Shown here: positions 13,468 through 62,522 of the stretch, piece after piece
Layout of the letters: every line of letters starts with the position of its first letter
Numbering within the stretch: the stretch's first letter is position 1
From: an uncultured Bacteroidales bacterium
Lineage (GTDB): Bacteria; Bacteroidota; Bacteroidia; Bacteroidales; Paludibacteraceae
Length of the DNA: 64,000 bases
Reading direction: 5' to 3'
NCBI GenBank assembly: GCA_902800215.1
Contig: CADCDS010000006.1
Span: forward strand, 1 to 64,000
Translations under genes and position numbers: made by a program
The notes under the pieces: generated by a model
Database searches by the model: none
Told to the model about the DNA's origin: nothing
The model's input: only the letters and a program-made list of their open reading frames with translations

Positions 13468-13538
13468 TTGAAGATTGGAAATTGGAGATTGGAAATTGGA
13501 GATTGGAAATTGGAGATTGGAAATTGAAGATTGAAGAT
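13468..13538 (+). repeat. Intercistronic stutter array, ATTGGAGATTGGAA words
   Basis: The whole spacer between the adaptor and pump genes is tandem copies of a roughly 14-bp word (GATTGGAAATTGGA), degrading to GAAGATTGAAGATT near the next start codon. It starts directly after the TAA stop. There is no hairpin or promoter. See the findings for the other arrays. Confidence 0.9.
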
Positions 13539-13540
13539 TT

Positions 13541-16500
13541 ATGAAGGGTAATATATTCATAAGCAAACATGTGATGGCCTGTGCGATTGCGATTGTGATT
13601 GCACTGATCGGCTATATCTGTCTGAACACCTTAGCGGTGGAGCAGTATCCGAATATTGCACCGCCGACGGTGGAGGTGAGCACGAGTTATTCGGGAGCGG
13701 ATGCCAACACATGTATGAAATCGGTGATCCAACCCTTGGAGGAGCAGATCAACGGTGTGCAGGACATGACGTATATGACGGCTACGGCATCCTCAACGGG
13801 TGACGTAACGATCATGGTGTATTTCAAGCAGGGCGCCGATGCCGACATGGCGACGGTGAATGTGCAGAACCGTGTGTCGCAGGCGGAGGCGTTACTACCG
13901 AGTGACGTGCTGCAGACGGGTGTGACGGTGACCAAGCGTCAGAACAGTATCCTGCAGATCGCCGGTCTGAAATCGACGGACGGTAAGTATGATGCGGATT
14001 TTATATCGAACTATATCGACATCAACGTCAAGCCGCGGTTACAACGTATCACGGGTGTAGGAGCGGTAACGAACTTAGGTAACACCTATGCGTTACGGGT
14101 ATGGTTACGACCGGATCAGATGGCGCAATACGGTCTGGAACCGGACGATGTGTCGGCAGCTATTCAGGCGCAGAGTTTCGTGACGTCCACCGGTACGTTA
14201 GGTCAACAATCCGAGAACGCCTATCAATATCCGATGGAGTACAAGGGTACGCTGAAGAGTATTGAAGAGTTTGAGAACATCGTACTGCGTACGCAGGGTA
14301 ACAGCAATGTGCTGTATTTGCGCGATGTGGCGACGGTGGAGATCGGCGCGAAGAGTTACACGATGACGTCGAATATGGATGGTATGCCGGGTGTGTTCTA
14401 TCTGATTAATCAATCGCCCGGAGCGAATGCCACCTTGGTGAATCAGAAGATCGGGGAACTGTATGAGCAGTTGAAACCGACCTTACCGGCAGGATTGGAG
14501 TTTGTGATCCTGGAGACGAGTGACGACTTCCTTTTTGCGGCTATTCACAATGTGGTGGAGACCTTGATCATTGCGATTCTGTTAGTGATCATCGTGGTAT
14601 ATTTCTTCCTGCAGAGTTTCAAGGCGACGATTATTCCGTCGATCTCGATCATCGTATCGCTGTTAGGTACGTTCGGTATTGTGACGTTAGCAGGATTCTC
14701 GCTAAATATATTAACCTTGTTTGCCTTGGTGCTGGCGATCGGAACAGTGGTAGATGACGCGATAGTGGTGGTAGAAGCCGTGATGGGAAAACTGGAGAAC
14801 GGCGAACGGACGAATGGCGAAAGTGGAAAGGCACGTGCGATACGGGCGACACGGGAAGCGATGAGCGAAGTGTCGGTTGCCGTGGTATCGTGTACCTTGG
14901 TGTTCATGGCGGTGTTTATTCCGGTTACGTTCATGAGCGGCACGAGCGGTACGTTCTTCACGCAGTTTGGTATCACGATTGCAGGATCGGTGGGTCTGAG
15001 TTGCGTCTGTGCGTTAGTGCTTTGTCCGGCACTGTGTGCGTTAATGATGAGACCGAATGAAGAGTCGAAAGTGGAAAGTGGAAAGAAAGGCAAATGGCAC
15101 TGGAAGGGAATTAACTACTACACAAAGAAGGCGTATGAGGTGAGTTTCAACGCGATCTTGGGTAAATACAAGAAGGCGGTGAAGGGGTATATCCAACATC
15201 CGTGGATCTCGGGAGTGCTGTTAGCGGTAGCAGCGGTGCTGTTTATTTTCCTGATGCGCGGAATGCCGTCGGGCTTGGTGCCGCAGGAAGATCAAGGTGT
15301 GATCATGTGTGAGGTGCGCATGCCGGAAGGTGCGACGCTGCATGAGAACAGCGAGATCATGAAGCAGGTGGAAGAGAAAGTGAAGGCTATTCCGGAGTTG
15401 GAGAGTTACGGTTTATGTAGCGGTTACGGTTTGATTTCGAGTAGCGGATCGAGTTACGCATCGCTGATTATCCGTTTGAAGAACTGGGATGACCGTAAGG
15501 GTGACGAGCATTACATCGACAATGTGATCTATAAGTTCTACTTGGATTGCCAGAGTATCAAGAATGCGCAGGTGCTGCCGTTCCAGATGCCGCAGATTCC
15601 GGGTTACGGTACATCAAATAGTATCGACTTGCAGGTGCAAGACCGGAGTGACGGTGATCTGAGTGATTTCGGAAACAAGACGAATGCTTTCTTGGCGAAG
15701 TTGATGGAGCGTCCGGAGATCGGAAGTGCGATGTCCACTTACTCAGAGCGTTTCCCGAAATACAAGGTGCATGTGGATCCGATTCAGTGCGAGCGTGCCG
15801 GAACGACGGCCAAGGCAGTGTTGAACACCCTGGGTGCGTACTGTGGCGGTTCGTATGTAGGGAATTTCAACCAGTTCAGCAAGGTATATAATATCCTGGT
15901 AGCTGCGGCTCCGGAGTACCGTTTGGATCCATCGTCGCTGAATAACATGTTTATCAAGGTGAGTGACGACAAGATGGCGCCATTGTCGCAGTTTGTGACC
16001 TTGGAAGAGATCGTAGGTTCTTCGTCTCATTCGCATTTTAACTTATATCAGTCGATCTCCTGCAGCGTGACGGCGGGTAACGGTTATTCGGAGAGTCAGG
16101 CACACGAAGCGATTGCAGAGGTGTTCAAAGAGACGATGCCGAGTTATTGCAGTTTTGAATACGGATCGATGTCGCGAGAGGTGGAAGAGAGTGCGCACAG
16201 TAACACGACGCTGTTGATTTACGCGATTTGTGTGCTGTTGATCTATTTAATCTTAGGCTCGTTGTACAACTCCTGGTTGATACCGTTTGCGGTGCTGCTG
16301 AGTGTTCCGTTTGGTCTGATGGGTGCGTTCCTGTTCTCGTGGGTAGGTTACAAGTTAGGTTATCCGGGAATGGAGAACAACGTCTATCTGCAGACGGGTG
16401 TGATCATGTTGATCGGTTTGTTGGCTAAGACGGCAATCCTGATTACGGAGTTTGCCAGTGAGCGTCGCAAGCAGGGTTTGACGATTGTGGATGCGGCGCT

Positions 16501-16729
16501 GGAGGCTTGTAAGGAGCGTCTGCGACCGATCTTGATGACCGTTATCACCATGATCGTAGGTATGTTACCGTTGGTATTCTCGAGTGGTGCCGGAGCGAAC
16601 GGAAACCGGGCGTTGGCAGTAGGTGTGGTTGGCGGTATGCTGATCGGTACGATTGCGCTGATGTTCGCGGTTCCGGCGTTCTTCATTGTGTTCCAGAAGT
16701 TGGAGGAGAAGGTGAAAGGTGAAAAGTGA
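13541..16729 (+). CDS. RND multidrug efflux pump, HAE1/AcrB family
   Basis: A 1062-residue inner-membrane proton/drug antiporter. It has the usual duplicated layout of one plus six transmembrane helices in each half, with two large periplasmic loops. The proton-relay residues are present: adjacent Asp-405/Asp-406 in GTVVDDAIVVVEAV (TM4) and Lys-963 in GLLAKTAILITEFAS (TM10). The start FISKHVMACAIAIVIALIG and early NTLAVEQYPNIAPPTVEVS are typical. Two loops carry inserted stutter-repeat peptides absent from ordinary AcrB: KLENGERTNGESGK after TM4 and EESKVESGKKGK after TM6. The end (KVKGEK) is made of GTGAAAG-type repeats that continue into the channel gene spacer. Confidence 0.96.
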   Translation: MKGNIFISKHVMACAIAIVIALIGYICLNTLAVEQYPNIAPPTVEVSTSYSGADANTCMKSVIQPLEEQINGVQDMTYMTATASSTGDVTIMVYFKQGADADMATVNVQNRVSQAEALLPSDVLQTGVTVTKRQNSILQIAGLKSTDGKYDADFISNYIDINVKPRLQRITGVGAVTNLGNTYALRVWLRPDQMAQYGLEPDDVSAAIQAQSFVTSTGTLGQQSENAYQYPMEYKGTLKSIEEFENIVLRTQGNSNVLYLRDVATVEIGAKSYTMTSNMDGMPGVFYLINQSPGANATLVNQKIGELYEQLKPTLPAGLEFVILETSDDFLFAAIHNVVETLIIAILLVIIVVYFFLQSFKATIIPSISIIVSLLGTFGIVTLAGFSLNILTLFALVLAIGTVVDDAIVVVEAVMGKLENGERTNGESGKARAIRATREAMSEVSVAVVSCTLVFMAVFIPVTFMSGTSGTFFTQFGITIAGSVGLSCVCALVLCPALCALMMRPNEESKVESGKKGKWHWKGINYYTKKAYEVSFNAILGKYKKAVKGYIQHPWISGVLLAVAAVLFIFLMRGMPSGLVPQEDQGVIMCEVRMPEGATLHENSEIMKQVEEKVKAIPELESYGLCSGYGLISSSGSSYASLIIRLKNWDDRKGDEHYIDNVIYKFYLDCQSIKNAQVLPFQMPQIPGYGTSNSIDLQVQDRSDGDLSDFGNKTNAFLAKLMERPEIGSAMSTYSERFPKYKVHVDPIQCERAGTTAKAVLNTLGAYCGGSYVGNFNQFSKVYNILVAAAPEYRLDPSSLNNMFIKVSDDKMAPLSQFVTLEEIVGSSSHSHFNLYQSISCSVTAGNGYSESQAHEAIAEVFKETMPSYCSFEYGSMSREVEESAHSNTTLLIYAICVLLIYLILGSLYNSWLIPFAVLLSVPFGLMGAFLFSWVGYKLGYPGMENNVYLQTGVIMLIGLLAKTAILITEFASERRKQGLTIVDAALEACKERLRPILMTVITMIVGMLPLVFSSGAGANGNRALAVGVVGGMLIGTIALMFAVPAFFIVFQKLEEKVKGEK

Positions 16730-16732
16730 AAG

Positions 16733-18187
16733 ATGAAAGGAAAAAGGAATATGAAAGCAAATAAATTTTCAATTTTCAATTTTCTTATCCCAAGGGAACG
16801 ATTATTTCAATTTTCAATTATTATCGCGCTATGCGCGATGATGTGTTCGTGCGGCGTATATAAGAAATACCAACCGCAGCAAGAGGCACCGAAGGATTTG
16901 TTCGGGCAGACGACGATAGGGGATACCTTGGATTTGACGAAAGACAACATGGCAGAGTTATCCTGGCGGGAGTTTTTTGTAGATCCTATTCTGCAGGAAT
17001 TGATTGACTCGGCTTTGGTGCGTAACACGGATATGCGTTCAGCACAACTGACGTTGAAGAAAGCGGAGGCATCGTTAAAAGCGGCGAAGTTGGCTTTTCT
17101 GCCGTCCTTGTCGTTACAACCGTCAGCGAGTGTGTATAGCACAATGGGAACGAACGGATCCTTAAGCGGTGCATCGTACACGTACGATATCCCGTTGCAG
17201 TTGGATTGGAACGTAGGTATCTCGGGTTCGAGGATTGTAGGTAAACGCAAGGCGCAGGCGGTGGTAGAACAAGCGAAGGCGCAACGCGATGCAATGCAGG
17301 CGAATATCATCTCGACTATGGCGCAGCAGTATTTCATGTTACTGCTGTTAGACCGTCAGTTGGAGATATTACAGGAGACAGACAGTCTGTGGAACGAGTC
17401 GTTAGAGACCGAGCGGGCATTATGGGAAAACGGTAAGGCCTACTCAACGGCGGTGAATCAGATGGAGTCGAGTAACCTGAGTGTGAAAGTACAGATTGTG
17501 GATACGAGACGCAGCATCAAGAATATCGAGAACAGTATCTGTCAGATGTTAGGTCTGACGCCGCAGACGATCCGTAGAAACACGTGGGGAGACTATGCGT
17601 TACCGGAGCGATTCGGTACGGGTGTTCCGGGTGTGTTGTTACAGAATCGTCCGGATATCCGGTTGGCGGACCATATGTTAGAGGAAGCGTTTTATAACAC
17701 GGCTTCGGCACGTGCGGCTTTCTATCCTTCGCTGTCGTTACAAGGTATCTTGGGATGGACGAATAACGGTGGTATTATAACGGATCCGGGTGCATTGATC
17801 CTGAAAGCCATCGGTTCGTTGGTACAACCGATCTTCCAGCAAGGTAAGTTACAGGCAAATCTGAAGATTGCCAAATACGAGCAGGAGGAACAGTTGGATC
17901 AGTACGTACAGACGGTGATCAATGCCGGTAACGAAGTGAACGAGTGCTTAGCGGACTGCCAGACGGCGTACGACAAGAACCTGCTGTATCAGCGTCAAGT
18001 GGAGGTGCTGCAAGACGCATATGAGGGTACGCACGAGTTGATGAATAGCGGTAAGGCAAGTTATCTGGAGGTGCTGACAGCGCAGGAGTCGTTACTTTCA
18101 GCGCAGTTGAATGAGGCAGAGAACCTGTATAAGGGTTCGATTGCTTTGATCGGATTGTACATAGCGCTGGGAGGTGCGACGAAGTAG
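16733..18187 (+). CDS. TolC-like outer membrane efflux lipoprotein (NodT/OprM family)
   Basis: A 484-residue channel partner of the adaptor and pump. Two outer-membrane-efflux-protein repeats are visible (about residues 80-275 and 290-480), with coiled-coil stretches such as QLTLKKAEASLKAAKLAFLPSLSL and the end GSIALIGLYIALGGA. The N-terminus is odd: a lipoprotein signal ending CAMMCSCGVY is preceded by FSIFNFLIPRERLFQFSII, encoded by TTTTCAATTTTCAA stutter repeats. A second ATG at 16751 may be the true start, giving MKANKFS. The 3-bp gap after the pump gene implies coupled translation. Confidence 0.93.
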   Translation: MKGKRNMKANKFSIFNFLIPRERLFQFSIIIALCAMMCSCGVYKKYQPQQEAPKDLFGQTTIGDTLDLTKDNMAELSWREFFVDPILQELIDSALVRNTDMRSAQLTLKKAEASLKAAKLAFLPSLSLQPSASVYSTMGTNGSLSGASYTYDIPLQLDWNVGISGSRIVGKRKAQAVVEQAKAQRDAMQANIISTMAQQYFMLLLLDRQLEILQETDSLWNESLETERALWENGKAYSTAVNQMESSNLSVKVQIVDTRRSIKNIENSICQMLGLTPQTIRRNTWGDYALPERFGTGVPGVLLQNRPDIRLADHMLEEAFYNTASARAAFYPSLSLQGILGWTNNGGIITDPGALILKAIGSLVQPIFQQGKLQANLKIAKYEQEEQLDQYVQTVINAGNEVNECLADCQTAYDKNLLYQRQVEVLQDAYEGTHELMNSGKASYLEVLTAQESLLSAQLNEAENLYKGSIALIGLYIALGGATK

Positions 18188-18245
18188 GGGCAAGCAGTTT
18201 GGTACGATTTTTGTAGGAAATAAAAATATAGATCATAAAAGATAG

Positions 18246-21334: not shown

Positions 21335-21407
21335 TGGTGCCACCGAGAATCGAACTAGGGACACAAGGATTTTCAGTCCTTTGCTCTACCAACTGAGCTA
21401 TGGCACC
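21335..21407 (-). tRNA. tRNA-Phe (anticodon GAA)
   Basis: 73 nt read on the minus strand: acceptor GGTGCCA, D-arm GCTCAGTTGGTAGAGC, anticodon stem/loop GGACTGAAAATCC with GAA, T-arm with GTTCGATTC, acceptor TGGCACC and discriminator A. The 3' CCA is not encoded. It has its own promoter at 21440-21471 and terminator at 21308-21334. Confidence 0.96.
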
Positions 21408-23762: not shown

Positions 23763-25552
23763 GAAAGCAAGTTTTAGTGTTGGCGCTGTTAGTGTGTGCG
23801 GCTTTGTCGTACGCCGGCAGTTACGGTATTTTAGTGAATGGTCAGATCTATTTCGCGGCGGAGTATCGCGGCAAGGACGGTATGACCGGTACGTATGACG
23901 AGTATCTGGCGCATGTAACGTTGACGAATGGAGATTCGTTCCAGTTATATGACGTGGACTATGATGCACGTTGGGCGGTGGATCTGGATACGTATTCGGA
24001 GAACGGTTTTACGAAGAGCGGTGACCATTATACGAGTTCGGTGACGGGTTGCTACGATTGCTACATCAAGTTAAAATACGGTGAGGATCAGCTTTATATA
24101 GGCAACGGCAGTGACTGCGGTAGTGGTATAGATATCGATGATATCTATCGCGGTGCGGTACCTCATGAGTGTGAGGCGGTGCTGATGCAGGCGTTTTACA
24201 ATGAGTCGTACAGTGCGACGGCGCCGGGTGTGAGTGAATACGGAGACACCAAATGGGCGACCTTGACACCGCAGGCCGCAGAGATCGGTGCGTATTTCGA
24301 TTATGTATGGTTACCGCCGAGTGCGAACGGTGACGGCATGGGTTATCACCCGAAGCAATACAGCAATCAGAATTCGAATTGGGGAACGCGTGCGGAGTTG
24401 GATGCCTTGATCAGCGCGTTGCATGATGCGGGTTCGAAGGTGGTAGCAGACGTTGTGATCAACCACTGCACGGGCTGGACGAGTTGGTGCGATTTTCCGA
24501 CGATGGATTTCGGAGAGTACGGTGTTTTTCATCCGGATGCCAGTTATATCTGTCAGGATGACGAGGTGAATAAGAATCCGGAAGCGGGTGACTGTTACGG
24601 TGCGGCAACGGGAAATATGGATGACGGTGAGAACTGGGATGGAGCACGTGACTGGAGCCATGATAATGTGTATGTGCAGGAGATGTTCGTCGCGTATCTG
24701 AAATGGATGCGTAATGAGATGCATTATGACGGATTCCGGTACGACAAGGGTGACGGTTTTAACAACTGGCATCACTGGCATTATAACTCGGAGGCACGAC
24801 CGGAGATTGCTTTTATGGAGTGTTACAAGGGCACGGACGATATCTGGTCGCGTATTGTAGGTGCCAACTATGACTTGCTGGCATTGGATTTTGACTTGAA
24901 ATGGCATGTTTTTAATTCGATAGCCGGTTGGGATTACAGTCGGGGTCGCGGTGATTGTATCATGAGTAGGGGCAACGGTCGTCATTCGGTGACGTTCATC
25001 GAGAGTCACGACTGGTTCTTGCGTCCGGATAACGAGAATGAGTTCGGAGGAAGAGGAAACTCGATGACGCCGGCGCTAAAGGCTCGTCTGATGCAGGCGA
25101 ATGCGTTGTTGCTGAGTATGCCGGGTGTGCCGTGTGTGTTCTATCCGCATTGGGCGAAATACAAAGCGGAGTTGAAGCCGATGATTGTGGCGCGTAAGTG
25201 GGCAGGAGTGCATAGCGAGAGTGAAGTGAAAGACGAGTACGCGACGAGTACGGGTTATCAGGCGACGGTGGTAGGTAAGCACGGATGGTTGATCTTGTGC
25301 CTGGGTGACAAAGCGAACCAGCAGGGTTTTGAAGGATATACGTTGGTGGCAAGTAACTACAGCACGATGGAGGGTCATAACGAGAGTTTTGAGATCTGGG
25401 TGAACAGTAACCAGCCGAGACCGACGACGGATGTCGAAGAGGTTACGGGTTACGGGTTACAGGTTACGGGTGAGAAGTTTATGAAAGACGGTAAGCTGTT
25501 TATCCGGGTAGGGGAGACGGTTTACGACATGATGGGTCAAATAATGAAATAA
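23759..25552 (+). CDS. Secreted GH13 alpha-amylase 2 with N-terminal binding module
   Basis: 597 residues. Signal peptide to about residue 19, then a roughly 105-residue beta-rich module (SYGILVNGQIYF to YIGNGSDCGSGID) shared with the next two gene products. The GH13 barrel starts at HECEAVLMQAFYNESY. Catalytic regions: DVVINH, GFRYDKGDG, AFMECYKG, FIESHD. The short C-terminal tag is present (GKLFIRVGETVYDMMGQIMK), preceded by VTGYGLQVTGEK, which is encoded by GGTTACGGGTTAC stutter repeats. Linked by ATGA overlap to amylase 1; 4 bp separate it from amylase 3. Confidence 0.94.
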   Translation: MRKQVLVLALLVCAALSYAGSYGILVNGQIYFAAEYRGKDGMTGTYDEYLAHVTLTNGDSFQLYDVDYDARWAVDLDTYSENGFTKSGDHYTSSVTGCYDCYIKLKYGEDQLYIGNGSDCGSGIDIDDIYRGAVPHECEAVLMQAFYNESYSATAPGVSEYGDTKWATLTPQAAEIGAYFDYVWLPPSANGDGMGYHPKQYSNQNSNWGTRAELDALISALHDAGSKVVADVVINHCTGWTSWCDFPTMDFGEYGVFHPDASYICQDDEVNKNPEAGDCYGAATGNMDDGENWDGARDWSHDNVYVQEMFVAYLKWMRNEMHYDGFRYDKGDGFNNWHHWHYNSEARPEIAFMECYKGTDDIWSRIVGANYDLLALDFDLKWHVFNSIAGWDYSRGRGDCIMSRGNGRHSVTFIESHDWFLRPDNENEFGGRGNSMTPALKARLMQANALLLSMPGVPCVFYPHWAKYKAELKPMIVARKWAGVHSESEVKDEYATSTGYQATVVGKHGWLILCLGDKANQQGFEGYTLVASNYSTMEGHNESFEIWVNSNQPRPTTDVEEVTGYGLQVTGEKFMKDGKLFIRVGETVYDMMGQIMK

Positions 25553-25556
25553 GGAT

Positions 25557-27395
25557 ATGAAGAAAAGAATCAGTATCATTTTGATGATGGTGTTGTGTGC
25601 GACGATGTCGTGGGCAGCCAGTTACGGAATCTTGGTAAACGGCAAGATGTATTACCAGGGAGCCAAGGTGGATGAGTTTGAAGGTTTCACGCAGTACCTG
25701 GCGAATGTGCAGGTGGTGAGCGGAGACAAGTTGCAGTTGTATGATTATGAGAATAAAGCCGGTTGGGCGGTGGATCTGAATACTTATTCGGAGTCAGGTT
25801 TTACGCGTGACGGCGATCATTACAATGCGACGGTAAGCGGTTGTTATGCCTTCTATATCAAGTTGAAGTATCAGGAGGATGAATTGTATATCGGTAACGG
25901 CAGCGATTGCGGTGCAGGAGTAGATATCTCCAGTGGAGAAGTTCCGGAACCGGTGTATGGCGGAGCTGTACCGGCGCAGTGTCCGGACGTGATGATTCAG
26001 GCATTCTACTGGAACAGTACATCCGGAACGGCATCAGAAGGAAACGGATACGGTCGTACAAAATGGGTGGATTTCCTGAATGGAACCAATGGATCTTCGG
26101 CAGAGGAGATCGGTCAGTGGTTCGACTTGGTGTGGTTGCCGTGTATGAGTGCCGGTGGTGGTTTGGGTTATCACCCGTATGACTACGGCAGTCTGGACAG
26201 TGACCGAGGCACGAAGCAGAAGTTGACGCAGTTGATTACGACGCTGCATCAAAACGGTGCGCGTGTGGTAGCGGATATCGTGATTAACCACGCTGATGCG
26301 AAGAGCGGATGGTGCGGCTATGCAAATGGATATAACTTCGGCTCATACGGAACGTTTGTTCCAGATGGCACGTATATCTGCAGCACGGACGAGGTGAATA
26401 CCTATGCACCGGAGACGGCATGCCGGGGTTTTGCGGTAGGTAATCCGGATGACGGATACGGAGATGAAGCGAACTATGCGGCATCCAGAGACTGGGACCA
26501 TACAAGTACGAAGGTGCGTGATATGTTCAAAGCGTATTTGAAATGGATGCGTAATGAAGTGAAAGTGGACGGATTCCGTTATGACTACTGCAAGGGATAC
26601 CATACCTCGCATATAAATGAGTATAACACGGCATCGCAACCGTATTTCAGTGTGATGGAGTATTGGGATGGAAACGTGAACGAGTTGATGTCCAGAATGA
26701 CGGAAGCAGGATGGAACACGGCAACGTTTGATTTCGCTATGAAATATACGGCGTTTAACCAAGGTATCGCGTCGGATTACTATCAGGGTCTGCGTGGTGC
26801 AGGTTTGTTAGGCGCAGGAAAGAGCCGTTATGCGGTGACGTTTATCGACAGTCACGATTCTTTCCAACGCGATAACGACAATGAGTTCTGTGGAAACGGT
26901 AATTCGATGGGTCTGTGTGCGGATAAGCTGATGCAGGCGCATGCGTATATGCTGTCGATGCCGGGTGTGCCGTGTGTGTTCTGGCCGCATTGGGTGACGT
27001 TCAAGGATAAAATCAAGCCGATGATTAACGCACGTTACAAGACAGGCGTGCATAGTGAGAGTGCTGTGAACGACGAGGCAGGTGACGGTTATTACAAGGC
27101 GACGATCACCGGTAAAAATGGCGAGATTCGTCTGTTGTTAGGTCCTAATTCGGGTTATAACAGCACACCGAGTGGTTACACGCTGGCCGTGAAGGGCACC
27201 AACTACGGTGTGTATTATAAGATGACCAGCGCACGTGGAGACAAGGATACCGAGCGTACGGACAGAACGCAAGGTGTTGAAGAGGTTACGGATAACGGGT
27301 TACAGGTTACGGGTGAGAAGTTCATAGAGAACGGCAAACTCTATATCCGTTGCGGTGAGCAGGTATATGACGTGATGGGTCGTATTGTGAAATAA
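25557..27395 (+). CDS. Secreted GH13 alpha-amylase 3 with N-terminal binding module
   Basis: 612 residues: signal peptide ending SWAASYG, the shared module (YGILVNGKMYYQG to YIGNGSDCGAGVDIS), and a GH13 barrel from QCPDVMIQAFYWNST. Catalytic regions are DIVINH, GFRYDYCKGY, SVMEYWDG and FIDSHD. The tag GKLYIRCGEQVYDVMGRIVK ends the protein, again preceded by VTDNGLQVTGEK from stutter repeats. It is close to amylase 2 in both layout and wording, indicating tandem duplication followed by divergence. Probably acts on starch or glycogen outside the cell. Confidence 0.94.
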   Translation: MKKRISIILMMVLCATMSWAASYGILVNGKMYYQGAKVDEFEGFTQYLANVQVVSGDKLQLYDYENKAGWAVDLNTYSESGFTRDGDHYNATVSGCYAFYIKLKYQEDELYIGNGSDCGAGVDISSGEVPEPVYGGAVPAQCPDVMIQAFYWNSTSGTASEGNGYGRTKWVDFLNGTNGSSAEEIGQWFDLVWLPCMSAGGGLGYHPYDYGSLDSDRGTKQKLTQLITTLHQNGARVVADIVINHADAKSGWCGYANGYNFGSYGTFVPDGTYICSTDEVNTYAPETACRGFAVGNPDDGYGDEANYAASRDWDHTSTKVRDMFKAYLKWMRNEVKVDGFRYDYCKGYHTSHINEYNTASQPYFSVMEYWDGNVNELMSRMTEAGWNTATFDFAMKYTAFNQGIASDYYQGLRGAGLLGAGKSRYAVTFIDSHDSFQRDNDNEFCGNGNSMGLCADKLMQAHAYMLSMPGVPCVFWPHWVTFKDKIKPMINARYKTGVHSESAVNDEAGDGYYKATITGKNGEIRLLLGPNSGYNSTPSGYTLAVKGTNYGVYYKMTSARGDKDTERTDRTQGVEEVTDNGLQVTGEKFIENGKLYIRCGEQVYDVMGRIVK

Positions 27396-27424: not shown

Positions 27425-28291
27425 ATGAAAAAGATTTTTACAGTTTTCGCAGCCATGTGTATGGCGCTGAGTATGTCGGCAGCCAATTATGGTGTGTTGG
27501 TAAACAGTCGTTATTACTATCCCGGCACGATGGTGGATGAGTTTGAAGGATTCACACAGTATCTGGCGCATGTGCAACTGAAGGCAGGTGATTACTGTCA
27601 GTTATGCGATGCAGACAACAAGGCTGTTTGGGCGGTGGATTTGAACACGGCTTCGGTAGCCGGTTTCACCCGTAACGGTGAGTTGTACGAAGTAAGTACG
27701 GCCGGTTGCTATGATTTCTATATCAAGTTGAAGTATCAACAAGACGAGTTGTATATCGGTAACGGTTCGGACTGCGGAGAGGGTATCGATATCAGCGGTA
27801 TTATTGACGATGGAGGAGATGACGACGTGAACTATTACGCGATCGGATGGATTAATGGAACGGACCATGGTGAAACTGCATATGATGTGTATGAGGATCA
27901 GTACTTATTTGTGGATGGTAAGTTGACGATTGATTGTCAGATGGGAAGTTATATCGCCATTAAGGATCACAAGGGTAATTTCTATTATTCGAAGACAGCG
28001 ACCACTATTGCCAACGAGTCTGTGACGATGGATTGGGCAAACGGCTGGTCCGGATGCGAGAAATGGGCCATCCCAGAGGGAACGAACTATATCATCATTC
28101 GCAGTGCAAAGTTCAAAGACAAGATTCAGTTGGAGCGTGTGGACAAAGCGACCTATGATGCGTATCAATACAATCCGCAGGGCATCGAGAAGACGGAAGT
28201 GACTGAGAAAGCGCACAAGGTGATTATGGATGGTCAGTTGCGTATCGTTCGTGGTGGTAAGATCTATGACGCTACGGGACGTGAGTTGTAA
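27425..28291 (+). CDS. Secreted catalysis-free binding protein with the amylase-type N-terminal module
   Basis: 288 residues with a signal peptide (SMSAANYG). Residues 20-125 repeat the module of amylases 2 and 3: YGVLVNSRYYY, EGFTQYLAHVQ, WAVDLNTAS, YDFYIKLKYQQDELYIGNGSDCG. There is no GH13 barrel. A second domain (about 135-255) reads WINGTDHGETAYDVYED through GTNYIIIRSAKFKDKIQLERV and may be another carbohydrate-binding beta-sandwich. It ends with the short tag (GQLRIVRGGKIYDATGREL). It is likely a surface glucan-binding protein acting alongside the amylases, comparable in role only to SusE/SusF. No family name can be given. Confidence 0.7.
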   Translation: MKKIFTVFAAMCMALSMSAANYGVLVNSRYYYPGTMVDEFEGFTQYLAHVQLKAGDYCQLCDADNKAVWAVDLNTASVAGFTRNGELYEVSTAGCYDFYIKLKYQQDELYIGNGSDCGEGIDISGIIDDGGDDDVNYYAIGWINGTDHGETAYDVYEDQYLFVDGKLTIDCQMGSYIAIKDHKGNFYYSKTATTIANESVTMDWANGWSGCEKWAIPEGTNYIIIRSAKFKDKIQLERVDKATYDAYQYNPQGIEKTEVTEKAHKVIMDGQLRIVRGGKIYDATGREL

Positions 28292-28311
28292 TTTTAGATT
28301 TTAGATTTTTA
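28292..28311 (+). repeat. Intercistronic stutter array, ATTTTAG words
   Basis: The spacer between the binding protein and amylase 4 is TTTTAGATTTTAGATTTTTAT, beginning at the TAA stop and ending at the next ATG. Confidence 0.75.
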
Positions 28312-41151: not shown

Positions 41152-41217
41152 AATTGTAATATTTTAGTTTGTTAGTTAATTTCGTCATTACGTCATAACG
41201 TCATGTCGTCATAACGA
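41152..41217 (-). repeat. Intercistronic stutter array, TTATGACG words
   Basis: The spacer begins at the TAA stop of the DUF6242 gene (minus strand) with TAATCGTTATGACGACATGACG and continues with GTTATGACGTAATGACG. An AT-rich stretch then leads to pgk. No promoter box is seen. Confidence 0.85.
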
Positions 41218-43955: not shown

Positions 43956-44016
43956 ATATTTACTTTAGCTTTTGGCTATTGGCTATTAGCTAACGGCTAA
44001 CGGCTAACAGCTAATG
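43956..44016 (-). repeat. Intercistronic stutter array, AGCCGTTAGCC words
   Basis: Starts at the TAA stop of the polyprenyl synthase gene (minus strand), TAACATTAGCTGTTAGCCG, and continues GTTAGCCGTTAGCTAATAGCC and GCCAATAGCCAAAAGC up to near the next start. Confidence 0.9.
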
Positions 44017-44980: not shown

Positions 44981-46009
44981 TTAAAACTTATTTTCAATAA
45001 TATCTGTCAAGACATCTTTAATATCGAGTCCTGCCGCTCTTACCTGCTGCGGAATAAAGCTCGTCGGTGTCATTCCCGGCGTGGTATTCACTTCGAGTAA
45101 CATAAGTTTGGCATCCTGTAACCCGTCACCCGTAACCGGTAACCCTTTAATAATCCAATCGACGCGAATAATTCCCTGCGCACCGATGATGTCGTATAGA
45201 CGCAGTGTCTCGGCTTGGATCTTATCGCGTATGGCATCGGGGATACGTGCCGGCGTGATCTCGTCCACCTCGCCTTTGTACTTCGCGTTGTAATCGAAGA
45301 ACTCGTTATGCGTCACCACCTCCGTGATCGGGAATGCAACCGCTTTGTCCTTCGTCTTATACACACCGCAGGTCACTTCCGTACCTTGCATAAACGACTC
45401 GCAGATCACCTCGTCGCCCTCTTGGAACGCCCGTTCGATGGCCGGATAGATATCCTCCACGGTCTTTACTTTCGTGCAACCGAACGAACTACCGCCTACG
45501 TTGCTCTTGATGAAACACGGCAGACCTAAGGTCTCCGCGATCTTCGGCGCATTCGGCAGTTTCTGACCGGCACGAAGCATCAGACTGTTCGCGATATGAA
45601 AACCGAAATACGACAAATAATGGTTGCAGGCGTATTTGTTAAACGTCAGCGCAGCTGCCAGCACACCGCAACAACTGTACGGCATACCGATCATATCCAG
45701 ATAACCCTGCAGGATTCCGTTCTCACCCGGTGTACCGTGGATCGTGATATACGCAAAATCGAAGGTGTGCTTCTCGCCTGCGCGCGTAAAAGAAAAATCA
45801 TTCTTATCGATGGGATAAGAATCATTCTCCAATTTCCATTCTCCATTTTCCAATGCCGGAACGGCATACCAGTTCTTGCCGTCAAAAACGACGATGGTGA
45901 CATCGTAGCGCTCCTTGTCCATAAAGGAGTAGATACCCGCTGCCGAACGCAGCGATACCTCATGTTCGCTACTGTCTCCGCCTGCTATAATCGCTATTTT
46001 TCGTTTCAT
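44981..46009 (-). CDS. ddl: D-alanine--D-alanine ligase
   Basis: A 342-residue ATP-grasp ligase joining two D-Ala for peptidoglycan. Landmarks: IAGGDSSEHEVSLRSA start, GTPGENGILQGYLDMIGMPYS, LPCFIKSNVGGSSFGCTKV, QGIIRVDWI and LLEVNTTPGMTPTSFIPQ. An unusual loop near residue 55, PALENGEWKLENDSYPID, is encoded by TCCAATTTCCATTC stutter words and replaces a shorter loop in other Ddl proteins. It lies 9 bp downstream of the lipoprotein gene, with the promoter at 46528-46559. Confidence 0.95.
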   Translation of the reverse strand: MKRKIAIIAGGDSSEHEVSLRSAAGIYSFMDKERYDVTIVVFDGKNWYAVPALENGEWKLENDSYPIDKNDFSFTRAGEKHTFDFAYITIHGTPGENGILQGYLDMIGMPYSCCGVLAAALTFNKYACNHYLSYFGFHIANSLMLRAGQKLPNAPKIAETLGLPCFIKSNVGGSSFGCTKVKTVEDIYPAIERAFQEGDEVICESFMQGTEVTCGVYKTKDKAVAFPITEVVTHNEFFDYNAKYKGEVDEITPARIPDAIRDKIQAETLRLYDIIGAQGIIRVDWIIKGLPVTGDGLQDAKLMLLEVNTTPGMTPTSFIPQQVRAAGLDIKDVLTDIIENKF

Positions 46010-51988: not shown

Positions 51989-53190
51989 AGTATTGCTGTA
52001 TTTTGTAGTTTCTCTTGTAGTTGTCCGCCGGAAACGCCTAATTTCTTAGCGGTCAGATCTTTTAACTTACCGATACTCTTCGGAGAACAATTCAGCATCT
52101 CGGCGATCTCTTTATGACTTAATCCGATCAGTACCAACACGCAAATCCGTATATCTTGCTCGTTCAAATCCTGTGCCTTCAAAGTCTCCGCTAAACCGTG
52201 AAAACGTTTGTCCATTTGTCGGCACAACGCTGCAAGATCATCCCATGCCAACTCTTGCCGGATATCCTTCGCTTCTTGCAGTTGTCGCAAATTCTGCGTC
52301 AACTCCTTTCGTCTCGCTTCCTCAAAATCCGATTTCTCTCTCCGCAATTTTCGCTGTTTATGTACCACAACCGCTCCCCAAACCAACAATCCGATACCTA
52401 TTGCCCATAATAGGAGCACTTTTCTTGAATTAGCCTGTTCCTTTTTTGCCAAATCCTGTTTCAACAACTGCACCGCCTTCGTCAACTCTCCGTGCCTTTC
52501 TTTGATGGCATTCTGCACATCCGCTCGTTCTGACGACCATTGACGAATTGCCTCTGCGTCAGCATTCGTATCATTATGCGTCATGATATAATACAGATCG
52601 TCCAGATAAAACAGGTTCGTCATCCGCGGCAACAACTGCTCTGCATAATACATCGCCGAATCATCTATTTGTAAATAGGAATACGCCTGTGCGCGTAGCA
52701 TCAACAAATAGTCATTCTCCGCTCCCCTTGTATAATATAATACCGAATCATATTCTTCCCTGAACAAACTTGCCGCTGCTTTGGTCTCCATGACTTTTGC
52801 TTGCAATGTCTGACGGCTGATGGCTGATAGCTGAAGGCTGAGTGCCGAATCCACAAGCCTTAACGCTTTTTCTTTCTCACCCATTACCGCCTGTTCCCAT
52901 GCCATATTATTCAGCGCGTAAGCATAAGCCAAACTATCGTCCGTCTTCTTGAAATGTGCCGCACTCATCTCATACACCTCGTACGCCGTCTCATGGTCAT
53001 TGGCCTGCCGACACATGTTTGCCATATTCGAATATACGCGCCCTAACAATGCCTCATCCTCCGTCTCACTATGCGCAGCCTCAATGAAAGCCTGCATGGC
53101 TTCCACCTGCTTTCCCTCTTCGCGCAATGCCTTCCCGTTTTGGTAACACGTCATCGCGCTGGATAATAATATGACTGCAAAGATGTTCAT
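51985..53190 (-). CDS. Membrane-anchored TPR regulator with C-terminal LuxR-type HTH
   Basis: 401 residues: an N-terminal signal/anchor (IFAVILLSSAM), TPR-like helices (about 15-230, including NMANMCRQANDHETAYEVYEMSA), a transmembrane helix (VLLLWAIGIGLLVWGAVVV, about 262-280), a cytoplasmic coiled coil, and an HTH (LNEQDIRICVLVLIGLSHKEIAEMLNCSPKSIGKLKD). The layout places TPRs in the periplasm and the DNA-binding domain in the cytoplasm. An inserted stretch SALSLQLSAISRQTLQ near residue 115 comes from GGCTGATAGCTGA stutter words. Promoter at 53207-53238. Similar HTH to the partial gene at the window start. Confidence 0.82.
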   Translation of the reverse strand: MNIFAVILLSSAMTCYQNGKALREEGKQVEAMQAFIEAAHSETEDEALLGRVYSNMANMCRQANDHETAYEVYEMSAAHFKKTDDSLAYAYALNNMAWEQAVMGEKEKALRLVDSALSLQLSAISRQTLQAKVMETKAAASLFREEYDSVLYYTRGAENDYLLMLRAQAYSYLQIDDSAMYYAEQLLPRMTNLFYLDDLYYIMTHNDTNADAEAIRQWSSERADVQNAIKERHGELTKAVQLLKQDLAKKEQANSRKVLLLWAIGIGLLVWGAVVVHKQRKLRREKSDFEEARRKELTQNLRQLQEAKDIRQELAWDDLAALCRQMDKRFHGLAETLKAQDLNEQDIRICVLVLIGLSHKEIAEMLNCSPKSIGKLKDLTAKKLGVSGGQLQEKLQNTAIL

Positions 53191-54083: not shown

Positions 54084-54091
54084 GTTACCTT

Positions 54092-54120
54092 AAACTGTTA
54101 AATGGTTAAACCGTTAAATT
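54092..54120 (-). repeat. Stutter array overlapping the xseA 3' end, GGTTTAACCATTTAAC words
   Basis: Minus strand: AATTTAACGGTTTAACC, then ATTTAACAGTTTAAGG. The array supplies the last residues (NLTV) and stop codon of xseA and most of the spacer to the ComEA-like gene. Confidence 0.8.
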
Positions 54121-55230: not shown

Positions 55231-56535
55231 TTACTGCGGTTTTTTGACCACAGTCCAGTAAAACAGCAAGATGAGTGCGTAATAAACCGCTACCATCCAG
55301 CCATCAATTTGCGCACTTACCGTACTTCCCGGTAAACTCTCTATCCATCCTACCGCATGGTTCAGTAGCCATGCCACGGCACCCGTCACTTTACCTGCCA
55401 CCACGCCTATCCATCCACCGCCTAACGTCATAGTTACCAGACCTAAGGGCACTAAGATTGTTGCTAACGGCAACACGATCAGGTTTGTCAGCAGGAAATA
55501 ACTGCTCACCTGTCCGAAGTTATACATCGTAATCGGTAACGTACCTATCTGCGCTGCCAGAGAGACAATGATCATACCTACCACCCAACTCAGCGCCTTG
55601 CTTTTCCATACCTGACGGTGCAGAAACCGTTCCATACTGCTTGCCATCATCACAATCGCGGCGGTGGCCGTAAAACTCAATTGAAAACTGACACTCCACA
55701 GATCTGCAGGTCGTACCAGCAGAATGAGTACCGCAGCGGCTGCGATCGTATTGATCGACACCGCCCTTCTGTACGCCATCCGTGCAATCTCCACAATCGA
55801 CACCATCAGTACCGCACGCACCACCGAAGGTGTCATACCCGTTAACCAGGCGTAGAACCACATCACAGCGATGATAAGCAGACTGATCCCCCATCGTGCC
55901 CAACGCTCTTCGTATAGCGGTTTGAACCGTCCGCCTAAAGTGACTATCAACAGCAGTAACCCGTAGATCACACCCGTGTGCAGACCACTGACGGCTAACA
56001 CATGTGCCGCACCGGAGGCTTGAAAACGATGCTTCACCTCCGGATCCAGATCTTCCTTATATCCCAGCGTCAACGCACCTACGATCGCTAACTCATCGCC
56101 TTCCAATCCTGCCGCTTCCAGACGCCTATACAGCCGTTCCTGCAACGAAGGCTGATAGCTGACGGCTGACGGCTGAATGTTCCATCGTGCCGCAAACGCC
56201 CTGCCTATCCTTCGATCCCATTCGATCGTCGTATGTGCCACCACCGTATCTCCCCAGCCCGGCATCGTGTTGACGCTGTCCCGTAACAGGTACAGATACA
56301 CCGCTCCCTTTGCCGCCTGCCATGCTACCGCACTGCTGTCTTTTTGTGCAATCACCTCCGTTTCAAAGCGCTCACATTTCTCCGTCGGTTTGGCTTCACT
56401 CCTGATCACAAACGCCACATCCCGTGCCACCGCTTCCTCCACCGCCTTCGGACGCCAGTGGTCATAAAGCAATATTGCTGCCACCAGCGGTAACAGCAAT
56501 ACAACCATCGGATATGCTCTGAGGTACTTTTTCAC
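55231..56535 (-). CDS. Short ComEC/Rec2-type membrane protein
   Basis: 434 residues with about nine membrane helices. The competence-domain core is clear: RFQASGAAHVLAVSGLHTGVIYGLLLLI, GMTPSVVRAVLMVSIVEIARM, PADLWSVSFQLSFTATAAIV, QIGTLPITMYNFGQVSSYFLLTNLI. It stops right after the membrane core, and the C-terminal metallo-beta-lactamase domain of full ComEC is absent. The N-terminal OB-like segment is short (VAWQAAKGAVYLYL) and carries a stutter-derived loop (QPSAVSYQPSLQERL). Overlaps rpe by 4 bp. It may still form the DNA channel; competence itself is not proven. Confidence 0.85.
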   Translation of the reverse strand: MKKYLRAYPMVVLLLPLVAAILLYDHWRPKAVEEAVARDVAFVIRSEAKPTEKCERFETEVIAQKDSSAVAWQAAKGAVYLYLLRDSVNTMPGWGDTVVAHTTIEWDRRIGRAFAARWNIQPSAVSYQPSLQERLYRRLEAAGLEGDELAIVGALTLGYKEDLDPEVKHRFQASGAAHVLAVSGLHTGVIYGLLLLIVTLGGRFKPLYEERWARWGISLLIIAVMWFYAWLTGMTPSVVRAVLMVSIVEIARMAYRRAVSINTIAAAAVLILLVRPADLWSVSFQLSFTATAAIVMMASSMERFLHRQVWKSKALSWVVGMIIVSLAAQIGTLPITMYNFGQVSSYFLLTNLIVLPLATILVPLGLVTMTLGGGWIGVVAGKVTGAVAWLLNHAVGWIESLPGSTVSAQIDGWMVAVYYALILLFYWTVVKKPQ

Positions 56536-57176: not shown

Positions 57177-57215
57177 ATGAACAATTTAACAATTTAACAA
57201 TTTAACGTTTTAACG
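57177..57215 (-). repeat. Stutter array at the response-regulator 3' end, GTTAAATT words
   Basis: Minus strand: CGTTAAAACGTTAAATTG then TTAAATTGTTAAATTGTTC. The array encodes the last residues (KTLNC) and stop of the regulator and fills the 17-bp gap to rpe. Confidence 0.85.
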
Positions 57216-57871: not shown

Positions 57872-57887
57872 AACTTAAAAATCGCTG

Positions 57888-57935: not shown

Positions 57936-57958
57936 CACCGCAAAATGGTGGAAAAGCT

Positions 57959-58981: not shown

Positions 58982-58992
58982 CTTACGATCAT

Positions 58993-60450
58993 ATGAAAAA
59001 CTTAGAACCCAAAGGCCTGTGGTCCAGTTTCTACAGCCTTACCCAGATTCCGCGTCCCAGCGGAAAACGCAAAGAGATCGCTGATTTCTTAGTATCTTAC
59101 GGTAAATCGCTCGGTCTCGAGACCCTGCAAGATGAGATCGGAAACGTACTCATTCGCAAACCCGCTTCCCCCGGTATGGAGAACCACCCGGGTGTGATCC
59201 TGCAAGGACACATGGATATGGTGCCGCAGAAGAACTCCGACAAAGTCTTTGACTTTGAGAAAGACCCCATTGAGGCCTATATCGAAGAGAACGGCGAATG
59301 GGTGACCGCTAACGGTACCACCCTCGGTGCCGACAACGGTATCGGTGTAGCTACAGCGATGGCGATCCTGGCTGATAAGAATGTCGTACATCCTCCCCTT
59401 GAGGCCCTCTTTACCATCGATGAGGAAACGGGTATGTACGGTGCCAATGACCTCAAAGCCGGCTGGCTGCAAGGTAAATATCTGCTCAACCTCGACTCGG
59501 AAACCGAAGGTGAACTGTACGTAGGCTGCGCCGGTGGCATCGACACCACGGCTACGTTCGATTATCAACCCGTGGAAACCGAAGAAGGCGACATCGCCCT
59601 TCGCGTTGAACTCAAAGGCTGCAAAGGCGGACACTCCGGTTGTGACATCCATCTGCAGCGTGCAAATGCCATCAAACTGCTCTTCCGTTTCCTCAAAGAT
59701 GCGGTATCTAATTTCGAAGCCCGTCTGGCCTATGTGGAAGGCGGTTCGCTCCGTAACGCCATTCCGCGTGAAGCATCGGCGGTCATCACCATCCCCGAAG
59801 ATAGCTATCAAGACCTCCAAGATCTCGTCGATCGTTACGAGGACTTGTGGTTGAAGGAGTACGACGGTATTGAGACCGACCTCACCTTCAAAGCTACCGA
59901 AATCGAGTGTCCGAAAACCGAAATGCCGGAAGAGGTACAGGACTTCCTCATCCATGCCATCACCCTCTGCCCGCATGGTGTCTATCGCATGATCCCCGAG
60001 ATGCCGGATATCGTCGAGACCTCCAACAACGTCGCGATGATTAAATCACAAATCACCAATGACAAATCACAAATCATAGTTTACTGCCTCACCCGTTCCA
60101 ACGTGGAGAGCCGCAAAGAGGAACTGGCTTCGATCATCCACTCCGCCTTTGCGCTCGCAGGCGCTGACGTCAAGTTCAGCGGTGCATACCCGGGATGGCA
60201 GCCGAACTTCAAAAGCACGTTACTTAAGACCATGAAAGAAACGTACGAGAAAGAGTTTGGTAACTCTCCTCGTATCGTTACTATCCATGCCGGACTGGAG
60301 TGCGGTATCATCGGCGGAAACTATCCCCACATGGAGATGATCTCCTTCGGTCCTACCATCGAGCACCCGCATAGTCCCGATGAGCGTGTCAATATCGCTA
60401 CTGTACAGAAGTTCTATCGATTCGTACTATCTGCTCTACAGCAGCTTTAG
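58993..60450 (+). CDS. pepD: Aminoacyl-histidine dipeptidase (M20 family, PepD-like)
   Basis: A 485-residue cytosolic zinc dipeptidase. M20 metal and catalytic motifs: LQGHMDMVPQ, GTTLGADNGIGVAT, FTIDEETGMYGAN, NLDSETEGELYVGCAGG, and near the end TIHAGLECGIIGG and SFGPTIEHPHSPDERV. A stutter-repeat peptide KSQITNDKSQII (residues about 351-362) interrupts the SNNVAMI...VYCLTRSN strand pair that is continuous in other PepD proteins. Probably co-transcribed with asparaginase. Its 3' end overlaps the convergent protease gene by 53 bp. Confidence 0.94.
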   Translation: MKNLEPKGLWSSFYSLTQIPRPSGKRKEIADFLVSYGKSLGLETLQDEIGNVLIRKPASPGMENHPGVILQGHMDMVPQKNSDKVFDFEKDPIEAYIEENGEWVTANGTTLGADNGIGVATAMAILADKNVVHPPLEALFTIDEETGMYGANDLKAGWLQGKYLLNLDSETEGELYVGCAGGIDTTATFDYQPVETEEGDIALRVELKGCKGGHSGCDIHLQRANAIKLLFRFLKDAVSNFEARLAYVEGGSLRNAIPREASAVITIPEDSYQDLQDLVDRYEDLWLKEYDGIETDLTFKATEIECPKTEMPEEVQDFLIHAITLCPHGVYRMIPEMPDIVETSNNVAMIKSQITNDKSQIIVYCLTRSNVESRKEELASIIHSAFALAGADVKFSGAYPGWQPNFKSTLLKTMKETYEKEFGNSPRIVTIHAGLECGIIGGNYPHMEMISFGPTIEHPHSPDERVNIATVQKFYRFVLSALQQL

Positions 60451-62029: not shown

Positions 62030-62067
62030 ATCCTAATATCCAATATCCAATTTCCAATATCCAATTA
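62030..62067 (-). repeat. Intercistronic stutter array, TTGGATATTGGA words
   Basis: Begins at the TAA stop of the deaminase gene: TAATTGGATATTGG, AAATTGGATATTGG, ATATTAGGAT, running up to the protease start. The same word family as 13468-13538. Confidence 0.88.
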
Positions 62068-62487
62068 TCCCTGGTCATTCAAGAACACGACCTCAATCCC
62101 TGCCCGCTTGAGCAACTCCACACCGTCCATGATGCGGTATTCTTCGCCGTACACGACGCGCTTGATGCCCGACTGGATAATCAACTTCGAGCACTCCAGA
62201 CACGGACTGGCGGTCACGTACAGCGTCGCACCGTCGGAACTGTTATTCGACCGTGCTACCTTCGTCAGCGCATTCGCTTCCGCATGCAGCACGTAGGGTT
62301 TGCTCACATTATTTTCATCCTCGCAGATGTTCTCAAAACCCGAAGGCGTACCGTTATAACCGTCCGAAATAATCATCTGGTTCTTCACCAACAATGCACC
62401 CACCTTCCGCCGTACGCAGTAACTGTTCTCTGACCACGTCCGTGCCATCCGCATGTACAAATAATCCCGTTTCTCTTGCTTATCCAT
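62065..62487 (-). CDS. dCMP deaminase family protein (ComEB-like)
   Basis: A 140-residue zinc-dependent deaminase (dCMP to dUMP), feeding dTMP synthesis. The zinc site is VLHAEANALTKV and TASPCLECSKLIIQSGI; the preceding WSENSYCVRRKVGALLVKNQMIISDGYNGTP block is typical. Full length for the family. It lies between Mpl and the S41 protease with stutter arrays on both sides. Confidence 0.94.
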   Translation of the reverse strand: MDKQEKRDYLYMRMARTWSENSYCVRRKVGALLVKNQMIISDGYNGTPSGFENICEDENNVSKPYVLHAEANALTKVARSNNSSDGATLYVTASPCLECSKLIIQSGIKRVVYGEEYRIMDGVELLKRAGIEVVFLNDQG

Positions 62488-62522
62488 AACAATTTAACGA
62501 TTTAACGGTTTAACAATTTAAC
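62488..62522 (-). repeat. Stutter array at the mpl 3' end, GTTAAATTG words
   Basis: Minus strand: GTTAAATTGTTAAACCGTTAAATCG then TTAAATTGTT. It encodes the last residues (VKLLNR) and stop of the Mpl gene and the spacer to the deaminase gene. Confidence 0.85.

Follow-up and report, generated by a model that had tools for sequence, protein, structure and literature searches.

Genes in the 64,000-base stretch of an uncultured Bacteroidales genome analysed here (bases 1-64000 of contig C6, hereafter the window; assembly of 1.96 Mb in 30 contigs, 85% complete) are in several places separated by spacers that consist of tandem copies of a short word. What makes these arrays, and does their position between co-directional genes explain why they exist? 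A reading made from the sequence alone had named nine such places, and at all of them we were able to identify tandem words, with units of 7 or 8 bp. We consider it probable (roughly 0.7) that they are lineage-specific tandem repeats of 7, less often 8, bases, which arise by a genome-wide mutational process and survive as arrays in weakly constrained DNA. Resizing of the arrays by slippage is supported by the comparisons described below, and the recurrence of words at unlinked loci suggests a second process by which words spread.

Extent of the arrays

Arrays were scored as gapless periodic segments with a score of at least 12, those of the window being located with Tandem Repeats Finder and our own lag scan. 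The window holds 13 period-7 and three period-8 segments at this score, and neither kind was found in 10 shuffles of it. The own-genome sample comprises 863 kb, window included, with some stretches on contigs known from prior array matches and one shuffle per block as control. Shuffled sequence yielded close to none, and the arrays are thus far beyond chance. Genes were called with our own open reading frame (ORF)/hexamer script, uncurated; since this script was trained on the window's genome and applied also to other species of the genus, start positions may be misplaced.

Two comparison sets were used, namely 18 stretches from other species of the genus (six of them picked near matches of a prior search) and 47 named loci (L013-L059) that represent a single orthologous region, a 48th locus (L060) being excluded. 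The named loci encode the nearest named relatives of one gene, and their records are mostly titled as uncultured Bacteroidales or Paludibacteraceae, many rumen-related by name. An out-group of 12 genomes from other families (302 kb) was put through the same scan, and gave no period-7 or period-8 array in 242 kb of coding sequence and two in co-directional spacers.

Resizing, loss and replacement at orthologous sites

The spacer between a membrane-fusion gene (HlyD/CusB-type, 12376..13467, + strand) and an AcrB-type RND transporter gene (13541..16729, + strand) is available for comparison from the window and 47 other species. In the window, most of this spacer is occupied by a period-7 array (13466..13533, + strand) that begins within the TAA of the membrane-fusion gene and in which ATTGGAG and ATTGGAA alternate, giving a 14-bp higher-order unit. 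Arrays are present in 26 of the 48 species at a score of at least 10 and in 23 at a score of at least 12, with 23 distinct words, some of them near-identical, and in nine species (L014, L017, L022, L025, L033, L038, L040, L052 and L053) the spacer is only 1-3 bp long.

Nine pairs of the named loci, with flank identity of at least 88%, allow a species-level comparison. Four spacers differ by whole units, in steps of 14, 7, 63 and 21 bp (50 to 64 bp in L042/L057, 85 to 92 bp in L026/L030, 127 to 64 bp in L054/L055 and 34 to 55 bp in L024/L029), and so do two coding arrays, in steps of 42 and 14 bp (56 to 98 bp in L051/L022 and 29 to 15 bp in L029/L024). Lengths are unchanged at one site of L020/L051 (24 and 24 bp) and in a coding array of L024/L029 (22 and 22 bp). 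Copy number varies in unit steps between these close relatives, with exceptions that are weighed below, the comparison being between species and not strains. The close-pair tallies list sites in both directions, some being counted twice, and hold 24 spacer arrays present in both members and 18 one-sided, and eight coding arrays present in both and five one-sided.

Whole arrays are also present in one species and absent in its relative. A spacer of 24 bp in L051 measures 1 bp in L022 (95.0% flank identity), and loss in L022 is the likelier direction because L020 has the 24-bp form of L051; a spacer of 31 bp in L031 measures 3 bp in L017 (93.1% flank identity), a pair absent from the close-pair site list, whose figures come from direct comparison of the loci. 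At the end of one gene the word itself is swapped, being AAGTGAA-type in L022, TCATAAA in L051, and GAGAGTT plus TCATAAA in L020. Further close-pair sites show larger rearrangements. Even where the flanking DNA of two species is 90-95% identical, the operon spacer or protein loop in between can be built anew. As a separate observation, a convergent spacer of L042/L057 (95.7% identity, 113 vs 283 bp) carries a longer array of the TTGTTTGGGACTGCGTCC type, seen as period 14.

Within arrays, adjacent units resemble each other more than permuted units do, both in the own-genome period-7 arrays (2428 of 2800 positions alike vs 2387.7 +/- 10.1; 119 arrays) and in the period-7 (2718 of 3087 vs 2683.8 +/- 10.7; 114 arrays) and period-8 (568 of 672 vs 548.6 +/- 5.9; 24 arrays) arrays of other species. 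Likeness between neighbouring units is the trace expected from unit-by-unit duplication. Together with the whole-unit differences between close species, it sustains the proposal of the sequence-only reading that arrays are resized by slippage. We hypothesize that in this rumen Bacteroidales genus a genome-wide mutational process creates, lengthens, shortens and loses arrays, units being gained or lost by slippage or tandem duplication with an enzymology that we infer. Loss of mismatch repair was considered as a cause and rejected, MutS_V matches being found in 30 of 31 genomes, with two in the window's.

Recurrence of words at unlinked sites

Each locus had been thought to use its own word. 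In fact, words recur across the genome: after reduction of period-7 words to rotation and strand, the 160 own period-7 arrays form 479 identical-word pairs, vs 12.8 when words are drawn from the neighbourhood and 24.6 when letters are permuted. The commonest words are AATCTCC (23 arrays), AACCCGT (15) and AACAGCC (9), of which only AACCCGT can contain a run of three. Among ordered pairs from different stretches, the words are identical in 928 of 24604 in the own genome and in 28 of 6427 between species. Five other sampled species have 2 to 14 period-7 arrays each, and 18 of their 234 within-species pairs are identical, mostly from G011 (14). In this species (G011; L071, L177-L180) we observed that all five period-7 arrays are AACTATT and that five period-7/8 arrays lie in divergent spacers, contrary to the rule of placement given below.

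Some words are partly invariant, with GTTAAA fixed and YY variable, or with ATTGGA mostly fixed and N variable. Matches to such patterns (ATTGGAN, GTGAAAR, GTTAAAYY) overlap one another, so that match counts exceed array counts. In the own genome ATTGGAN is matched 48 times on each strand, and the pattern read backwards once on each. Within the genus, 16 of 61 genomes contain ATTGGAN; the window's genome has 96 matches and no other has more than 23. In one genus member the backwards control scores 24 matches, so that there the control itself happens to be a heptad word. A search across the order detected ATTGGAN in 8 of 119 genomes, which belong almost all to different families. GTGAAAR occurs in 28 of the 61 genus genomes, with 58, 44 and 42 matches in G015, G071 and G042 and only 4 in the window's genome, and GTTAAAYY also in 28, the window's genome contributing 39 matches and G033 46. 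Favoured word families differ between species. Each species would thus draw on a restricted stock of word families for its many unlinked sites, other species favouring other families, and a second step that spreads or favours certain words would therefore be needed.

Arrays, or inverted pairs of arrays, could be copied from site to site as blocks, in the manner of minimal mobile elements, and be diversified afterwards by slippage. This would fit the favouring of one word per species, and an inverted pair of AGCYAAN arrays (GTTAGCY then AATAGCC), about 55 bp long, is indeed found at five sites on five contigs of the own genome (43956-44016 in the window, and C19:26165, C2:13412, C20:23033 and C13:3684 of G000, the last four being 85-94% identical to the window copy). 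Four of these copies lie between co-directional genes; the fifth, at C20, is within a coding stretch (uvrA-like by eye). However, the sharing of blocks is barely above that of permuted arrays (58 pairs of at least 45 bp vs 44-54 in five unit permutations), and general block copying was set aside as weak; the variant strings of ATTGGA are not clearly shared (27 vs 29.5 for four units, 146 vs 117.8 +/- 17.9 for three, p 0.08), and shared unit order was dropped as a sign of copying. Reverse transcriptase was rejected as the spreader, PF00078 being present in 10 of 31 genomes and in none of the contigs of the window's assembly, which is 85% complete. We regard an origin by block copying as rather doubtful.

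Alternatively, the repeats might be written in trans. Each species would then write a small number of preferred words, in which one to three positions are free (e.g., ATTGGA plus N, GTTAAA plus YY), at dozens of unlinked sites, in spacers as well as in frame within genes, and the favoured words would change so fast that orthologous spacers keep the seven-base rhythm and not the sequence. We find such a system unlikely.

Placement behind stop codons and within genes

In the own-genome sample, period-7/8 arrays number 77 in 49.7 kb of co-directional spacers (2 in the shuffle), 6 in 6.6 kb of convergent spacers (0), 3 in 22.8 kb of divergent spacers (0) and 111 in 778 kb of called genes (0), with densities of 1.55 per kb of co-directional spacer and 0.143 per kb of coding sequence. 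The corresponding figures are 14 in 34.3 kb, 2 in 2.5 kb, 1 in 3.7 kb and 27 in 196 kb for the 18 stretches of the genus, and 73 in 38.4 kb, 3 in 1.7 kb, 2 in 10.3 kb and 39 in 643 kb for the 47 named loci. Counted per spacer, own and other species together, arrays are present at 20-120 bp in 121 of 497 co-directional, 9 of 44 convergent and 0 of 15 divergent spacers, at 120-300 bp in 19 of 159, 2 of 11 and 1 of 72, and above 300 bp, where the classes are alike, in 18 of 134, 2 of 18 and 6 of 42. The sequence-only reading had put forward a comparison with divergent spacers, and these are in fact depleted over all species pooled (Fisher p 0.03 at 20-120 bp, 0.005 at 120-300 bp and 1 above 300 bp); per base over all lengths, the own genome has 74 arrays in 48.8 kb of co-directional vs 3 in 22.8 kb of divergent spacers (p 1.9e-9). 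Co-directional and convergent spacers of 20-120 bp do not differ significantly (Fisher p 0.71, with low power owing to the few convergent cases).

Arrays had also been described as beginning at the TAA of the upstream gene. Anchoring at the stop is supported: the distance between the upstream stop and the first base of the array is at most 5 bp in 21 of 45 own cases (8.3 expected under random placement) and in 37 of 74 in other species (13.8 expected). In the window three arrays straddle the stop and a fourth (16709-16739) is mostly coding. Anchoring on the start-codon side amounts to 10 own arrays vs 8.5 expected and, mildly above expectation, to 20 vs 14.0 in other species. The rule of placement that fits these data is behind a stop codon and away from promoters, and not between cistrons.

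An evolved, sequence-flexible device, in which the length of the spacer is selected, any word serves, and translational coupling is tuned, was the interpretation that the sequence-only reading preferred. The filling of short co-directional spacers, the many words at the membrane-fusion/RND spacer, the whole-unit resizing and the depletion between divergent genes would all agree with it. Nevertheless, arrays are about as frequent per spacer between convergent genes, where no start codon follows, over a hundred lie inside called genes, and nine species manage with 1-3 bp at the very same membrane-fusion/RND place, so that we hold a coupling device to be decidedly improbable. Because arrays are about equally frequent in convergent and co-directional spacers, what unites the two classes seems to be weakly constrained DNA that follows a stop, and not translational coupling. 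Under the mutational reading, arrays would persist in the least constrained, non-promoter DNA (behind stops, at C-terminal ends, and in loops of the protein if the word is free of in-frame stops), and would therefore fill short co-directional and convergent spacers and be rare in divergent ones; effects on translational coupling would be by-products.

Among the arrays in called genes of the own sample, 102 are of period 7, some overlapping the gene's stop, and the peptides that they encode are mostly hydrophilic with a seven-residue rhythm (by eye). In an alignment inspected by eye, one loop of the RND transporter holds heptad arrays of AAAGTGG in the window, of GTACAAT/GTACAAG types in L013 and L019, of AACAGCC in L015 and of AACGACC in L059, and is shorter and free of arrays in most other aligned loci. 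We also noticed at this region that the RND transporter and the outer-membrane factor share one frame without a stop, fusion-like, in six of the 47 loci (L027, L033, L036, L037, L038 and L048), in a comparison in which L025 was mis-set, and appear as separate genes elsewhere. Period-8 arrays number 9 in coding sequence, vs the 102 of period 7, and 23 in co-directional spacers, vs 54 of period 7; their scarcity in coding sequence is probably due to the common period-8 words holding a stop codon in one of three frames. In the samples of G017 and G011 no arrays lie in genes. An excess of period-11 arrays was observed too in the own sample (10 co-directional, 3 divergent, 0 in the shuffle), and these may be A/T-rich promoter regions.

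Fixed positions and other points against slippage

Several observations weigh against the reading that we prefer. The 479 identical-word pairs are not accounted for by slippage alone, which is also insufficient at a site where L018 has ATTGAAA (period 7) and L046 has CGTCATGA (period 8) between flanks that are 90.1% identical. Some length differences do not correspond to whole units, as in L022/L051 (62 to 86 bp, i.e., 24 bp), L020/L051 (78 to 69 bp, 9 bp) and L024/L029 (81 to 93 bp, 12 bp, at a period-8 word, which is not whole units of 7). The likeness of adjacent units is weak in the own period-8 arrays (662 of 784 positions vs 654.5 +/- 6.0; 30 arrays), and at the variable letter of the AATCTCC/ATTGGA family adjacent units are less alike than permuted ones (55 of 141 vs 63.4 +/- 3.8), second neighbours being slightly more alike (51 of 102 vs 45.9 +/- 3.2), a pattern that duplication in 14-bp steps, or survival of interrupted arrays, would yield. 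In the own genome alone, co-directional and divergent spacers do not differ significantly per spacer within length classes (p 0.20, 0.25 and 0.48), and the genus species G017 and G011 have few arrays or put them in divergent spacers. Lastly, the variable positions lie on fixed columns in six of 12 own-genome word families.

The strongest case among these six is the AATCTCC family, in which one column is variable in 32 of 41 arrays and the other columns in 1 to 10 (chi-square p 3e-15), and the others are AACCCGT (p 8e-8), AACAGCC (1e-8), GTTAAATT (1e-10), CGTCATGA (0.002) and AAATCAC (0.01). The remaining six own families show no significant preference for a column (p 0.09 to 0.49). In other species, the AACAGCC family keeps its two variable columns (6 arrays); the AATCTCC family has no significant column (11 arrays, p 0.12), and its most variable column differs from that of the own genome. 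We considered, and dropped, the idea that every word strictly has six fixed bases and one or two free ones, because the longest invariant run is about that of random placement (period 7, own 3.71 vs 3.78, others 3.82 vs 3.73); in period 8 there is a slight excess (own 4.78 vs 4.21, others 4.61 vs 4.37).

Fixed and variable positions in some families, and words common to unlinked sites, might point to multimeric binding sites of a regulator, an RNA- or DNA-binding protein, with one reader per word family, as was proposed for TAACTGA repeats. Against this, families occur on both strands, the ATTGGA pattern equally often on each, and within coding sequence, roughly a dozen separate readers would be required, one per family, words are swapped at orthologous sites, and in other species the AATCTCC family varies most at a different column; we thus see binding sites as a very improbable explanation. 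An artefact of chance, composition or assembly has next to no likelihood, since, although short repeats are prone to assembly error, the assembly is an incomplete one in many contigs and the relatives' records are mostly titled metagenome-assembled genome (MAG), shuffles contain almost no arrays, arrays run in frame within genes, the same method finds almost none in other families, and arrays recur in records of several isolate series.

Relation to known heptamer repeats

Cyanobacterial short tandemly repeated repetitive (STRR) heptamers are degenerate 7-bp tandem repeats with several families per genome. They have other words and belong to another lineage, and are likened to the present arrays by description. 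A closer likeness is to the heptamers GGGAATC of Xanthomonas and GGGGA(C/T)T of Nostoc/Anabaena, reported from 117 intergenic regions in one strain (PMC4692102). As presented there, repeats downstream of genes on the coding strand lie mostly 0-50 bp from the stop, some overlapping it, are under-represented between divergent genes, vary in length and sequence between related species, and have neighbours without a common functional class (PMC4692102). The arrays described here share with them the 7-bp unit, the many dispersed sites, the proximity to stops, the rarity between divergent genes and the variation in length and sequence between relatives. With bacterial heptameric tandem repeats of the long simple sequence repeat/STRR kind in general they share the head-to-tail arrangement far above chance, the dispersed occurrence with a non-coding bias and the variation of copy number in unit steps between close relatives. 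In that account of Xanthomonas and Nostoc, each organism has a single G-rich word family, for which quadruplex formation was demonstrated, and 83% of repeats keep their place in a sister species (PMC4692102). Here, in contrast, there are many word families per genome and no single G-rich word with GGG runs, words are swapped between species, period 8 occurs too, and many arrays are coding.

TAACTGA heptamers were described in Beggiatoaceae, cyanobacteria and five Bacteroidetes, with two sets in Paludibacter propionicigenes, and with mostly 7-nt indels between two sister cyanobacterial strains (PMC4679880). These too are heptamer arrays between genes; the repeats of the Beggiatoaceae genome, however, lie mostly just upstream of start codons, in one orientation and with one word (PMC4679880), whereas the present arrays anchor at the upstream stop in mixed orientation. 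TAACTGA is outside the 25 commonest of the 160 own period-7 words, in a ranking made with no direct search for it. Long simple sequence repeats with units of 5-11 nt were surveyed by repeat length by Mrazek (2007, as cited in PMC4679880 and PMC4692102), with heptanucleotides as the most abundant class in most genomes and a proposed link between slippage and the contact length of the polymerase (Mrazek, 2007, per PMC4679880).

The view that no description had been published therefore stands only in part: the stop-proximal heptamers and the TAACTGA heptamers are of the same kind, and what is new, relative to the accounts given in those two papers, is the number of concurrent word families, the two unit lengths, the replacement of words at orthologous sites and the frequency of in-frame coding arrays. 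Among the papers listed in searches of one open-licence library, none deals by title or abstract with such arrays in rumen Bacteroidales. Why seven-base units are favoured, and how one word reaches many loci, are left open in those accounts (PMC4692102; PMC4679880). The present genus has at least 60 other species, which differ in the words they favour; some arrays run in frame within genes, and close pairs of species show arrays gained, lost or swapped at known sites. The birth, spread and loss of arrays can thus be tested by comparison.

Arrays of the window

Arrays had been reported from spacers of the window; those of the same kind that we identified inside its genes show that they are not confined there. 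The RND gene carries an in-frame AAAGTGG array in its loop (15063..15085, + strand) and a C-terminal AAAGGTG array (16709..16739, + strand), which consists mostly of the last codons plus the stop. Coding arrays of period 7 are further found at 25441..25471 (+ strand; GGTTACG), 27284..27314 (+ strand; similar to the preceding one), 45118..45145 (- strand; GGTTACG family), 52806..52841 (- strand; TCAGCCA), 56150..56176 (- strand; TCAGCCG), 60043..60076 (+ strand; AAATCAC) and 63103..63138 (- strand; ATTTTCC), and one of period 7/14 at 45823..45852 (- strand), in the coding sequence that also holds 45118..45145.

Among the spacer arrays, AATTTTC (16764..16784, + strand) lies directly behind the RND gene, and would be intragenic if the next gene starts at 16733, as in the ORF list, and not at 16838, as given by our own caller. 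ATTTTAG (28291..28309, + strand) fills a 21-bp spacer, and ATTGGAT (62035..62065, - strand) lies between a deaminase-like gene and an S41 peptidase gene, in a spacer of 35 bp. A hairpin-forming period-8 array of the CGTCATGA family (41179..41212, - strand) stands 5 nt behind a stop and upstream of phosphoglycerate kinase. The inverted pair (43964..44014, - strand), also hairpin-forming, is composed of two period-7 arrays, GTTAGCY then AATAGCC, with sub-arrays at 43989-44014, 2 nt behind a stop, and 43964-43992. Three period-8 arrays on the - strand, two of GTTAAAYY (54090..54119 and 62487..62522) and one of GTTAAATT, of GTTAAAYY type (57180..57215), straddle the stops of the genes 54106-55161, 62502-63866 and 57194-57871, respectively, so that the upstream gene contributes its 3' end as about half of each array.

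The spacers had been said to contain neither promoter nor hairpin. Three of the nine stretches fold better than shuffles: 41152-41217 (-11.7 kcal/mol vs -6.4 +/- 2.1), 43956-44016 (-15.2 vs -8.7 +/- 2.4) and 62030-62067 (-5.3 vs -1.2 +/- 1.2); the other six fold no better. As for promoters, none was found, and no terminator either, in a scan confined to 13300-13700. In an Rfam scan of the window the sole match at gathering score is a tRNA (21335-21407), and no known RNA family was matched at the arrays.

The neighbouring genes 23759-25552 and 25557-27395 both seem amylase-like (by eye, from the translation), and carry the arrays 25441..25471 and 27284..27314 at a matching near-C-terminal place; the array therefore predates their duplication or was copied. 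Upstream of the membrane-fusion gene, an ORF of 3361 codons runs without interruption from 2278 to 12363.

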